34,120 nucleotides of DNA from Bacteroidota bacterium (lineage in GTDB: Bacteria; Bacteroidota; Bacteroidia; Chitinophagales; Saprospiraceae), in contig JAJRUR010000060.1 of the NCBI GenBank assembly GCA_024277695.1, forward strand, positions 1 to 34,120. Direction: 5' to 3'. The stretch's first letter is position 1. Every line of letters starts with the position of its first letter. The position numbers and the translations under genes are program-made. This document shows positions 1-13,679 of this stretch, in pieces. A model generated the notes under the pieces. That model ran no database searches. It saw only the letters and a program-made list of their open reading frames with translations, and was not told the DNA's origin.

Positions 1-542
1 CCGATATCTTTTGGACCGAAAGGTATGGGAATATCATGAGTAAACCAAGCGTAGGCTTGAGATGCTGATTTTTTCTTTTCTGATGGTCTGCGTAATATTG
101 CTTTTGTACAGCGAAATCCCCCAATAGATTTAGTTTGGGTGGTAATCTCCCAATCTGAGGTATTGCTTGGTAGTAAGATATTAATCAATTGACCATCTCG
201 GTTTTTTTGTAGTATAGCAGTTTTTTCTATATTGTCGTGATAATAAACTTTGTTTTTTCCAGCGATGATCTGTGCAATACTCGAGTTAGGATTCTCCATA
301 CTTAGTGTATTTTTTGATCGAAAAAGACTCTTGAAGTTGTTGCACAAGAGCTGGTATTCTATTTCTTGAGTTTTTTCTAGGATGGAGGATAGTTGTGGAT
401 TTCTTATTGGCGTACTATTGGCTTGCTGGTTATAGCTTAGTCGGTATATGACTTCTATGGTAGGTTTGTCTATCGGATTCTGCGCTATACCGATGTCCGG
501 AATTATTAGAAAAAGAGCGCAAATAAAAAGAAATTTAGTCAT
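1..542 (-). CDS. GLPGLI family protein, N-terminal part (runs off the left edge)
   Basis: About 180 codons are present from an ATG at 542; the C-terminus lies beyond base 1. The protein begins MTKFLFICALFLIIPDIGIA followed by QNP, a clear Sec signal peptide with cleavage near residue 21. Residues near the window edge read AYAWFTHDIPIPFGPKDI, which matches the 'W-[FY]-T-x-x-I-P-x-x-x-G-P' stretch that directly precedes the GLPGLI signature in this Bacteroidota-specific family; the signature itself would fall just outside the window. The family is exported and of unknown biochemical function, often found near envelope or TonB-related genes. A degenerate copy of codons from its early region lies about 1.2 kb away at 1645-1732. 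The gene starts 34 bases after a strong hairpin on the same strand. Family assignment is fairly sure; function is not. Confidence 0.82.
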   Translation of the reverse strand, partial: MTKFLFICALFLIIPDIGIAQNPIDKPTIEVIYRLSYNQQANSTPIRNPQLSSILEKTQEIEYQLLCNNFKSLFRSKNTLSMENPNSSIAQIIAGKNKVYYHDNIEKTAILQKNRDGQLINILLPSNTSDWEITTQTKSIGGFRCTKAILRRPSEKKKSASQAYAWFTHDIPIPFGPKDI

Positions 543-734: not shown

Positions 735-1388
735 CTATTCTTTAACAGTTACAGAAAGGATACAGTCATCGCAAGAACATTCCGCTCTGTTGGTATTAAA
801 ATCAAAAATTTCTCTACAACCACAAGACCCACTGCAATCAATCTCATATGTTTTATCGATTATGCCTTTATTCGTGTAAGTATTTGAGTACATTACAGTT
901 TCTACAGTTCCATCTTTCAACTCATAAGTATACATTATGGTGGTTACTTCTGGCTGAAAATTAAAATCAACTCTATTGAAACTTTTAATTCCTATTCCGT
1001 GCTTTCGTCGAGTAAATGCTTCAAAGTCATCAAAATGAAGATTTTCTCTATAAATCTGTTCCCAGACATCAATTTCTGATTTATAAGTATCAAAAGTAAC
1101 TGTCATTTTACAACCTGAACATGTGCATTCAAATCTTCCGTTCAAATCTGTAACAACTTGACAGTGGTCTGTATGTCCGGTATTATTACCATCACAAGCA
1201 TTTGTTGTACAATGAATAGAAATACCACCTTTGATGTATTGAATACCTGCTCTCTCAAACACCTCAGAAGATATTGATCGAAGTTCAATGTCTTCATTAG
1301 AATTGTGTTTTTTAAAGTTAAGATCATTATTTTGCGAACAAGAAATTAAAAAAACAATTGAACCAAAAAAAATAATTACATTTTTCAT
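735..1388 (-). CDS. Putative lipoprotein with two copies of a six-cysteine module
   Basis: 217 residues from an ATG at 1388. The N-terminus is a lipoprotein signal with a lipobox LISC, lipidated cysteine at residue 17. I do not recognise the family. The striking feature is an internal duplication: residues about 58-97 carry cysteines 60, 65, 76, 88, 90 and 93, and residues about 183-214 carry cysteines 185, 189, 191, 204, 206 and 209. Both end in a C-x-C-x-x-C cluster followed by a beta-like segment (CTCSGCKMTV versus CSCDDCILSV) and share a preceding D-x-N-x-R-x-E/F-C pattern. The spacing suggests a metal- or disulfide-stabilised fold exposed in the envelope. The gene is AT-rich compared with genes further right, stands alone, and is followed by a strong hairpin. 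Secretion is well supported; function is unknown. Confidence 0.72.
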   Translation of the reverse strand: MKNVIIFFGSIVFLISCSQNNDLNFKKHNSNEDIELRSISSEVFERAGIQYIKGGISIHCTTNACDGNNTGHTDHCQVVTDLNGRFECTCSGCKMTVTFDTYKSEIDVWEQIYRENLHFDDFEAFTRRKHGIGIKSFNRVDFNFQPEVTTIMYTYELKDGTVETVMYSNTYTNKGIIDKTYEIDCSGSCGCREIFDFNTNRAECSCDDCILSVTVKE

Positions 1389-3150: not shown

Positions 3151-4251
3151 ATGATGCGAAAGATTATCGACTTATATAGAAAAGTAGTTATACAGATAGC
3201 TACTCCATACAGTACCGGAACGGGATTTTATCTGGCGGACTATCATTTGATCATCACCAACGAACATGTAGTACGGGGTAACCGTGAGGTAGTGCTCAAG
3301 ATATACGGGCATGAAAAAATGAAAGCACGGGTACTCTACATAGACCCGAAGTACGACTTGGCATTTATAGATATTCCTAAGGGGGTAGAGCTGCCCGCAG
3401 TCAGTATCAATATAGAGCACATCGTCCAGCAAGGCGATCCGGTCATCGCTGTAGGACATCCGTTTGGACTCAAATACACGGCAACTCAGGGTATCGTGTC
3501 CAATACACTCCATCAGCAAGCCGGAATCACTTATATCCAACATGATGCTGCACTAAACCCGGGCAATAGCGGTGGTCCTTTGGTCAATTCTTCTTCAGAA
3601 GTCATCGGGGTCAATACTTTTATCATCCGTGACGGCAATAATATCGGATTTTCTCTTCCGGTCATGTATCTCAAAGAAAGTCTGGATGAGTACAGAGTGT
3701 TTTATGACCAAGCCGGGGCTCGTTGTATTTCATGTTCCAATCTCGTATTGGAAGCAACCGAAGAAGAGGGATATTGTCCTTACTGTGGCTCCAAAATCAC
3801 GCTTCCCTCGGATATAGAACCCTATATGCCTGTAGGAATCGTCAAAACTATCGAGGATGTCTTGGCAGGACAAGGGGTCAATATCGAGCTATCACGGATC
3901 GGACCCAATAACTGGCTGATCGACGAAGGATCCGCCCAAATCAATGTTTCTTATAATCCGAAGTCCGGAATGATTCTGGGAGAGGCAAAGCTATGTTCTC
4001 TACCCAAAGAAGGTATCAAACAACTGTACATATTCCTGTTAAAGGAAAATTATAAACTCAAAAAACTAACTTTGAGCGTCAGGTCAAACAATGTTTTTAT
4101 CTCTTGTGTTAACTTTGACCGATATTTTGACAAAGACATCCTCGATAGAGACTTGGCAGAAGTGATATCCAAGGCGGATGAATATGATGATATACTGATC
4201 GGTCAATTCGGTGCTATACCCCGTAAAAAGGAAGGTGAAGCAGCTATTTAG
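3151..4251 (+). CDS. Trypsin-like serine protease (S1C type) with zinc ribbon and YbjN-like C-terminus
   Basis: 366 residues, no signal peptide. Residues 1-185 form an HtrA/Deg-type chymotrypsin fold with a complete triad: His39 (TNEHVV), Asp69 (DPKYDLAFI) and Ser140 (NPGNSGGPL). Instead of the PDZ domain usual in HtrA proteins, residues 192-212 form a zinc ribbon (C192-x2-C195 ... C209-x2-C212). Residues about 225-355 resemble a YbjN / type III secretion chaperone-like domain (LPKEGIKQLYIFLLKENY ... KADEYDDILIGQFG). The same pattern appears in the product of the gene immediately upstream. Lack of an export signal implies a cytosolic protease, unlike periplasmic DegP/DegQ. Substrate unknown. 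Protease assignment is very sure; the C-terminal assignment is by pattern only. Confidence 0.88.
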   Translation: MMRKIIDLYRKVVIQIATPYSTGTGFYLADYHLIITNEHVVRGNREVVLKIYGHEKMKARVLYIDPKYDLAFIDIPKGVELPAVSINIEHIVQQGDPVIAVGHPFGLKYTATQGIVSNTLHQQAGITYIQHDAALNPGNSGGPLVNSSSEVIGVNTFIIRDGNNIGFSLPVMYLKESLDEYRVFYDQAGARCISCSNLVLEATEEEGYCPYCGSKITLPSDIEPYMPVGIVKTIEDVLAGQGVNIELSRIGPNNWLIDEGSAQINVSYNPKSGMILGEAKLCSLPKEGIKQLYIFLLKENYKLKKLTLSVRSNNVFISCVNFDRYFDKDILDRDLAEVISKADEYDDILIGQFGAIPRKKEGEAAI

Positions 4252-11893: not shown

Positions 11894-12748
11894 ATGAATT
11901 TTTGGAGCATTGAGGTAGAAAAGAAATTTTTTACAGCAGCGTTAAAAAACTTTGCTTCTCCGGAGAAATTATTTTACAAATTAACGGATGGGTACTTTGC
12001 ATATGTTCCAAAAGGAAAAGATACAGAAGGGCAAGCTTTACAAAGTAGAAATTCTCTAATCGGGCAATATACCGAAAAATGGTGTAAAGACTTTTTTCAA
12101 CCTATTGCAAATAAATTAGGGTTATTTGCGGTAAATAGTGTTGTTTGTCCCGAACTTGGATTATCCATTCAGAGTGATGCTGATTTAGCTTTCTGCACAT
12201 CTGACGAAAGCGTGCAAAAGGCAGAAAACATCAAGCTACTTTTTGAAATTAAAATGAGCATTGTAAATAACTATACTTTGGAGAATGATCAAGTACATTT
12301 TGTAGGAGACTACAAAACACATAAAGGAAATCCTTCAATTCTTCGTTCTGATTCGATGCTTAAGGCTATAGGGAAATCTATTAATATTAGAGTTTCCGGA
12401 ACGGAATCAACAAAAATTCCAATAATCATTCTTGCAAATAGTCCTATTACAAATAACTACTCAAAAAAAGTAGACTTTTTGAAGAAGTCGGGAATTATTC
12501 AAAGGTTCATTTCTTTATATCCAAATCCGACAATTGATTGTATTGAAAATACGGTTGGCAAGGGTTTTCAAACATTTAACAATTATCAAGAAATAAATAA
12601 TTACATTACAGATGTTGTTCATTCTGATATGAATTTCTTTTCTTCAATGATATCAAAAAGAAAATTAGGTCAATTGATAACAATATCTTCAAAGGAAAAA
12701 AGTAATATTTTAAGAGCAGAAAAATTTTTAAGTCTAATACATAATTAG
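11894..12748 (+). CDS. Putative type II restriction endonuclease, PD-(D/E)XK type
   Basis: 284 residues from the ATG at 11894. No exact restriction enzyme family is recognised. The middle of the protein has a PD-(D/E)XK-like core: SDADLAF supplies an acidic residue (Asp97) and LLFEIKMS supplies Glu118-x-Lys120, with the hydrophobic strand preceding it as expected; ahead of it is a helix with GQYTEKW. The gene ends one base before the ATG of a DNA methyltransferase, the classic R-then-M arrangement, and this context carries much of the call. Codon use is strongly AT-rich compared with surrounding genes, which fits recent transfer. Length suits a type II enzyme. The nuclease fold is a by-eye assignment; the specificity cannot be read from sequence. 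Confidence 0.72.
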   Translation: MNFWSIEVEKKFFTAALKNFASPEKLFYKLTDGYFAYVPKGKDTEGQALQSRNSLIGQYTEKWCKDFFQPIANKLGLFAVNSVVCPELGLSIQSDADLAFCTSDESVQKAENIKLLFEIKMSIVNNYTLENDQVHFVGDYKTHKGNPSILRSDSMLKAIGKSINIRVSGTESTKIPIIILANSPITNNYSKKVDFLKKSGIIQRFISLYPNPTIDCIENTVGKGFQTFNNYQEINNYITDVVHSDMNFFSSMISKRKLGQLITISSKEKSNILRAEKFLSLIHN

Positions 12749-12749
12749 T

Positions 12750-13679
12750 ATGAAAGAGATTAAGACATCAGAAAAAAGAAAAAAAGGGACTCAGTCAAGT
12801 TCATTTGGAACAAATGGCAGAATAAATCATGATGCATCCATGTTTTATAATTCAAAGTTGTACAGTGAATTGTCAAAAACTAAGCAAGTAAGTAAAGATA
12901 CAAATGTATTTCCGGAAGAATTATTAAATACAACTATACTTGGTTCAGCGGAAACGATGTCAATGATTCCTGACAGTTCATTGCATTTAATGATTACATC
13001 CCCACCATATAATGTTTCTAAGGAATATGATAAAGATCTGTCCTTGTCAGAATATTTAGAAATGTTAGAAGCCGTTTTTAAAGAAACATATCGTGTTTTA
13101 GTTAATGGTGGGCGAGCATGTATTAATGTAGCAAATCTTGGCAGAAAACCCTACATTCCACTTTCGGACTACATTTCAAAAATGATGATTGAAATTGGTT
13201 TTAATATGCGTGGAGAAATAATTTGGAACAAAGCAGCTAGCGCTAGTCCGTCAACTGCTTGGGGTAGTTGGATGTCTGCTTCTAATCCAATTTTAAGAGA
13301 TATACACGAATATATTTTAGTATTCTCAAAAGGGGACTATAAAAGAGATCGCACTAAAGCTGAGAAAGAAACAAAGCAAAATTCAATTTCTAGAGAGGAG
13401 TTTATGGAATGGACGAAGTCTATTTGGACATTCAATGCTGAGTCTGCTAAGAGAATTGGACATCCAGCGCCTTTTCCTATTGACTTGCCTTACAGATTAA
13501 TTCAATTGTATTCGTTCAAAACCGACATAATCTTAGACCCATTTATGGGTAGTGGTACGACTGCTATTGCTGCATTAAAATCTTACAGAAAATATATAGG
13601 TTTTGAAATAAATCAACAATATGTTGACTTAACTAAAAAGAGAACTGCACCATTTCAAAATATATTAGAACTAGATTAG
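12750..13679 (+). CDS. Site-specific DNA methyltransferase (amino-methylating, beta class)
   Basis: 309 residues from the ATG one base after the endonuclease stop. The catalytic motif is TSPPYN at residues 83-88, and the S-adenosylmethionine motif is DPFMGSGTT at 263-271 near the C-terminus. Catalytic motif before the AdoMet motif is the beta-class order; the serine form (SPPY) is seen mostly in N4-cytosine enzymes, so N4-methylcytosine is more likely than N6-methyladenine. The N-terminus contains SSSFGTNGRINHDASMFYNS, a segment I associate with such type II methyltransferases. It protects host DNA against the adjacent nuclease. Very AT-rich like its partner. Methyltransferase identity is sure, target base moderately so. 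Confidence 0.92.
   Translation: MKEIKTSEKRKKGTQSSSFGTNGRINHDASMFYNSKLYSELSKTKQVSKDTNVFPEELLNTTILGSAETMSMIPDSSLHLMITSPPYNVSKEYDKDLSLSEYLEMLEAVFKETYRVLVNGGRACINVANLGRKPYIPLSDYISKMMIEIGFNMRGEIIWNKAASASPSTAWGSWMSASNPILRDIHEYILVFSKGDYKRDRTKAEKETKQNSISREEFMEWTKSIWTFNAESAKRIGHPAPFPIDLPYRLIQLYSFKTDIILDPFMGSGTTAIAALKSYRKYIGFEINQQYVDLTKKRTAPFQNILELD

Follow-up and report, generated by a model that had tools for sequence, protein, structure and literature searches.

The gene at positions 735 to 1,388 of the analyzed DNA encodes a predicted exported protein (P0001) that carries two copies of a real, uncatalogued six-cysteine module, and its relatives form a sparse family of proteins likewise predicted to be exported. 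The family is new but of a familiar kind, that of small, cysteine-held domains of envelope proteins. The window, i.e. the whole stretch of 34,120 nucleotides that was analyzed, is part of contig C339 of a bacterial draft genome (2.67 Mb, 339 contigs, 94% complete). The gene and the parts of its product are located in the window as follows.

735..1388, minus strand: gene of the predicted exported cysteine-rich lipoprotein P0001, an open reading frame of 217 amino acids for which homologs were found
1338..1388, minus strand: predicted signal peptide and lipobox, residues 1-17 (L14-I15-S16-C17), from the sequence
1095..1229, minus strand: N-terminal six-cysteine module, residues 54-98 (C60, C65, C76, C88, C90, C93), from alignments, profiles and model
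855..1082, minus strand: cysteine-free middle domain (residues 103-178) of no sequence family, with helices that precede antiparallel strands, from the models
741..854, minus strand: C-terminal six-cysteine module, residues 179-216 (C185, C189, C191, C204, C206, C209), from alignments, profiles and model

Besides the lipobox residue C17, P0001 contains exactly 12 cysteines, which fall into two sets of six in matching order. Both sets terminate in C-x-C-x-x-C and 91 cysteine-free residues lie between C93 and C185, which bears out the preliminary description of such symmetry around a joint of about 90 residues. The arrangement conforms to a pair of modules of the pattern C-x(3-4)-C-x(1-10)-C-x(11-12)-C-x-C-x(2-3)-C with a cysteine-free middle between them. 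It is extremely improbable that this symmetry arose by chance or convergence without duplication, and chance was already refuted at the sequence level. The self-alignment of P0001, taken alone, is only moderately strong because its halves share few residues besides the cysteines; the direct alignment of the two halves scored 54, a value that 2 of 2,000 shuffles (mean 26, sd 5) reached, as did 5 of 2,000 when the cysteines were held fixed. When the mature protein was shuffled 200,000 times, no shuffle gave two matches to the spaced six-cysteine pattern, which was composed after inspection of the sequence, and 184 shuffles gave a single match. The modules of the relative L005 align with a score of 93 (shuffle mean 28, sd 5), which none of 1,000 shuffles reached even with fixed cysteines. 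Comparison of the N- and C-module profiles across the family gave an hhalign E-value of 6.9e-13. Hidden Markov models of each module were built without P0001 and its relative L003; the N-module model scored the two modules of P0001 at 28.7 and 11.5 bits (best of 200 shuffles, 7.5) and the C-module model scored them at 11.8 and 18.0 (best of 200 shuffles, 5.3). In a module tree, the C-terminal copies of the two-module proteins form a cluster of their own, which excludes N-terminal, tandem and single modules, so that one old duplication is favored as the origin of both modules, though not proved, with low support at the deep nodes (28-60). The profile comparison and this tree back the ancient internal duplication that had been suggested from the cysteine order.

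Genome searches identified seven full-length relatives, including a protein of Phaeodactylibacter luteus, and all seven belong to the same family. A single-sequence search of 398 genomes of the same family yielded L003 (52% identity, E 8.7e-70), L004 (2e-12), L005 (3e-11), L006 (8e-7) and L007 (7e-4). Most of the family-wide matches with E-values near or above 0.01 were regarded as chance, but L012, which was among them, became certain (1.6e-25) when 399 genomes of the order were searched with a profile, a search that also added L032. L004 corresponds to L086 of P. luteus KCTC 42180 (in Saprospiria according to NCBI); a scan of genome contigs with P0001 alone detected nothing, an alignment of six rows offered no sufficiently conserved stretch for such a scan, and a two-row alignment recovered P. 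luteus. As a search of the class added no clear full-length member and the module profile gave no convincing new member in 326 genomes of the phylum, the family is sparse and confined to one order among the genomes searched. In GTDB terms this order is presumably the Chitinophagales, judged from the GTDB placement of Phaeodactylibacter. No match was detected in phage and plasmid collections or in viral contigs.

The two-module relatives L003, L004/L086, L005, L007 and L032 resemble P0001 in size, signal sequence, the presence of two modules and a cysteine-free middle, but they share about 28-52% identity with it and L003 lacks the lipobox cysteine. The cysteines proved to be conserved among these homologs, all twelve being kept in five of the seven relatives (L003, L004, L005, L007 and L032). 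L006 lacks two N-module cysteines, of which one is C6 and the other, as the alignment is ambiguous, C2 or C3; L012 lacks C4 of the C-terminal module, which leaves it with 11 cysteines, an odd number. All cysteines of every member lie within the modules or the signal region, and in 11 of 12 proteins an even number of cysteines follows residue 30. Adjoining the L032 gene, a minus-strand open reading frame of 110 amino acids (start at 988 of the reverse strand) contains an unrelated-looking stretch with ten cysteines (CSIICPPGCGCSCSSYLFGCSCTCIGC). Gene neighborhoods differ among the two-module relatives and none is conserved; the gene therefore probably works by itself or together with distant partners.

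The search for other proteins with the six-cysteine unit also revealed lipoproteins with a single module and a protein with a tandem pair. L035 and L081 (147 amino acids, from a pair of congeneric species) and L057 (134 amino acids) keep all six cysteines; like P0001 they have a lipobox and a module at the C-terminus, which in these proteins follows the pattern C-x(4)-C-x-C-x(15)-C-x-C-x-x-C-x-M, but they lack the N-terminal module. L040 (226 amino acids) carries two modules in tandem at its C-terminus. These single-module lipoproteins and the tandem protein show that the six-cysteine module is a separate unit. No homology was detected between the middle domain of P0001 and the domain that precedes the module in the single-module proteins (hhalign probability 0.1%). 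Weak module matches in deaminases (L055, L096) and in a Rieske protein (L061) were rejected as chance similarity around cysteine motifs.

The preliminary description had also placed the gene in an AT-rich accessory patch. The G+C content of the gene is 31.5% (21% at its third codon positions) compared with 40.3% for the window, and ranks fourth lowest among 168 segments of equal size; this low G+C content, the sparse distribution and the absence of conserved neighbors support the placement in such a patch, but no mobile element was seen. Through a direct repeat (383-456 and 1647-1721; 47 nucleotides at 85% and 22 nucleotides at 91% identity with nearly equal spacing), the intergenic region upstream of the gene contains what is left of a copy of the 5' portion of the GLPGLI/Porph_ging gene (1-542, minus strand, PF09697), which suggests a decayed duplicate. 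Elsewhere in the window, a gene at 3151-4251, directly downstream of one for a 455-amino-acid protein without a Pfam family, encodes a trypsin-like serine protease (PF13365, E 7e-28) followed by a zinc-ribbon-like stretch (C-x-x-C ... C-x-x-C). The window's most AT-rich kilobase (30% G+C) is occupied by adjacent restriction-enzyme-like and DNA methyltransferase-like genes (11894-13679), which were recognized by eye only, with a TSPPYNV motif in the methyltransferase. A search of the window against Rfam gave no match.

Export is well supported by the signal sequences. In P0001, the signal peptide ends in L14-I15-S16-C17, which matches the lipobox pattern [LVI][ASTVI][GAS]C. An equivalent cysteine is found in L004-L007, L032, L035, L040, L057 and L081, while L003 and L012 have a signal-like N-terminus without it. 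The earlier assignment as a lipoprotein probably holds for P0001 and most relatives, but lipid anchoring is not universal in the family. The optimal surface signal of Bacteroidetes lipoproteins is C-X-K-(D/E)2-X (PMC5080379). The residues that follow the lipobox cysteine in L035 (K-K-E-E), L081 (K-K-E-D) and L040 (S-K-D-E) fit this signal, which suggests that these three proteins are located at the surface; P0001 (C-S-Q-N-N-D) does not fit it. In the host genome (G000), the type IX secretion tail PF18962 was matched 69 times.

The statement that the sequence matches no known family held for Pfam, NCBIfam and the PDB, as searches with P0001 and its relatives gave nothing over the cut-offs. No papers on such a protein were found. 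Structures were modeled with AlphaFold2 from alignments of two sequences only, and confidence was low for P0001 (pLDDT 51, pTM 0.54) and moderate for the P. luteus protein (pLDDT 64, pTM 0.64; pLDDT 57-84 in the block of residues 51-215, low only in residues 1-50). In both models, each module consists of four strands in the same order, with the cysteines at strand ends and in loops; the strands of P0001 are residues 52-62, 78-80, 85-88 and 93-101 in the N-module and 179-186, 193-196, 201-204 and 210-216 in the C-module. This agreement between the two halves, seen in models of low to moderate confidence, also argues against chance symmetry. The middle domain is predicted in both models to be a helix followed by antiparallel strands, and in that of the P. 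luteus protein the final strand of this sheet continues into the first strand of the C-module. Such a topology fits NTF2-like and cystatin-like domains, in which a helix is likewise followed by a four-stranded antiparallel arrangement; the best relevant Foldseek match (3lyg, E 0.63, probability 0.63) was not significant, and the scattered NTF2-like matches are compatible with the modeled helix-plus-sheet topology but prove nothing. A Foldseek search of the PDB and viral proteins with the P. luteus model found no significant match, and matches of the weaker model to fluorescent proteins, which were not significant, were disregarded.

With somewhat less than even confidence, we propose an exported protein that is held by disulfides, in which two six-cysteine modules flank a helix-plus-beta-sheet core and which binds a ligand or partner. 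Each module would form a four-stranded beta mini-domain whose cysteines occupy the ends of the strands and the loops that connect them, three disulfides per module would hold it and brace the core outside the cytoplasm, and the core or the surface of a module, presumably exposed at the cell surface, may bind an external ligand or partner, a binding role appearing more plausible than an enzymatic one. Structural disulfides are favored because the protein is predicted to be exported and the number of cysteines is even in 11 of 12 members, which is compatible with a disulfide-stabilized exported domain. Against this stand the odd cysteine count of L012, the absence of a surface signal from P0001 and the limited confidence of the fold models. 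Furthermore, neither DsbA (PF01323) nor VKOR (PF07884) was found in the 94% complete draft of the host genome, and VKOR was not found in two other carriers (99% completeness), which weakens the disulfide reading and makes metal binding a strong rival; the single-module carrier G557 is the only one with a VKOR domain.

Each module might instead be a metal site, in which cysteines from the loops C-x(3-4)-C and C-x-C-x-x-C jointly bind zinc or copper(I); the protein would then buffer metal in the envelope, deliver it or be stabilized by it. This explanation is possible though on balance doubtful. In addition to the failure to find disulfide catalysts in the host, it draws on the spacings C-x-C-x-x-C and C-x(3)-C-x-C, which fit thiolate ligands on adjacent turns, and on a match of L005 to Zn_ribbon_9 at 17.1 bits, which is well below the cut-off of 29.1. 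However, no Pfam zinc family, zinc ribbons included, reached its curated cut-off, no conserved metal transport or resistance gene lies nearby, and free-thiol metal sites are rare in the envelope. It is rather unlikely that the six-cysteine unit is, more specifically, a metal-binding mini-domain of a new kind in the envelope of Bacteroidota, which functions independently of the customary disulfide machinery, whether it stands singly, in tandem or as a flanking pair.

It is improbable that the cysteines are redox-active, as they would be, for instance, in a thiol sensor or reductant of the envelope. At L080 (9170-11542) and L081 (8907-11283), the single-module lipoprotein gene is followed by three others, which encode an AraC-type regulator, a membrane protein resembling DoxX/MauE and a small exported protein; this cluster is conserved in both species, and its genes were named by eye. 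The regulator and the membrane protein would suit a redox role, but such neighbors were not seen at the two-module genes and no thioredoxin-type fold or active site was recognized. A degenerate Rieske-like or other iron-sulfur domain is very improbable, since the weak alignment of the module profile with the Rieske protein 5cxm around C-x(12)-C-x-C, where the spacing from the cysteine loop to C-x-C is similar, is not significant (E 0.16), the Rieske ligand pairs C-x-H and C-x-x-H are missing, the C-module of P0001 has no histidine and ligand histidines are unconserved in the N-modules.

Proteins of the Chitinophagales that are predicted to be exported thus contain this small uncatalogued module singly, in tandem or as a flanking pair, which represents a clear case of modular duplication. 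As DsbA and VKOR were not found in the host, nor VKOR in the two other carriers, the redox state of the module would test how these bacteria handle the cysteines of their exported proteins.
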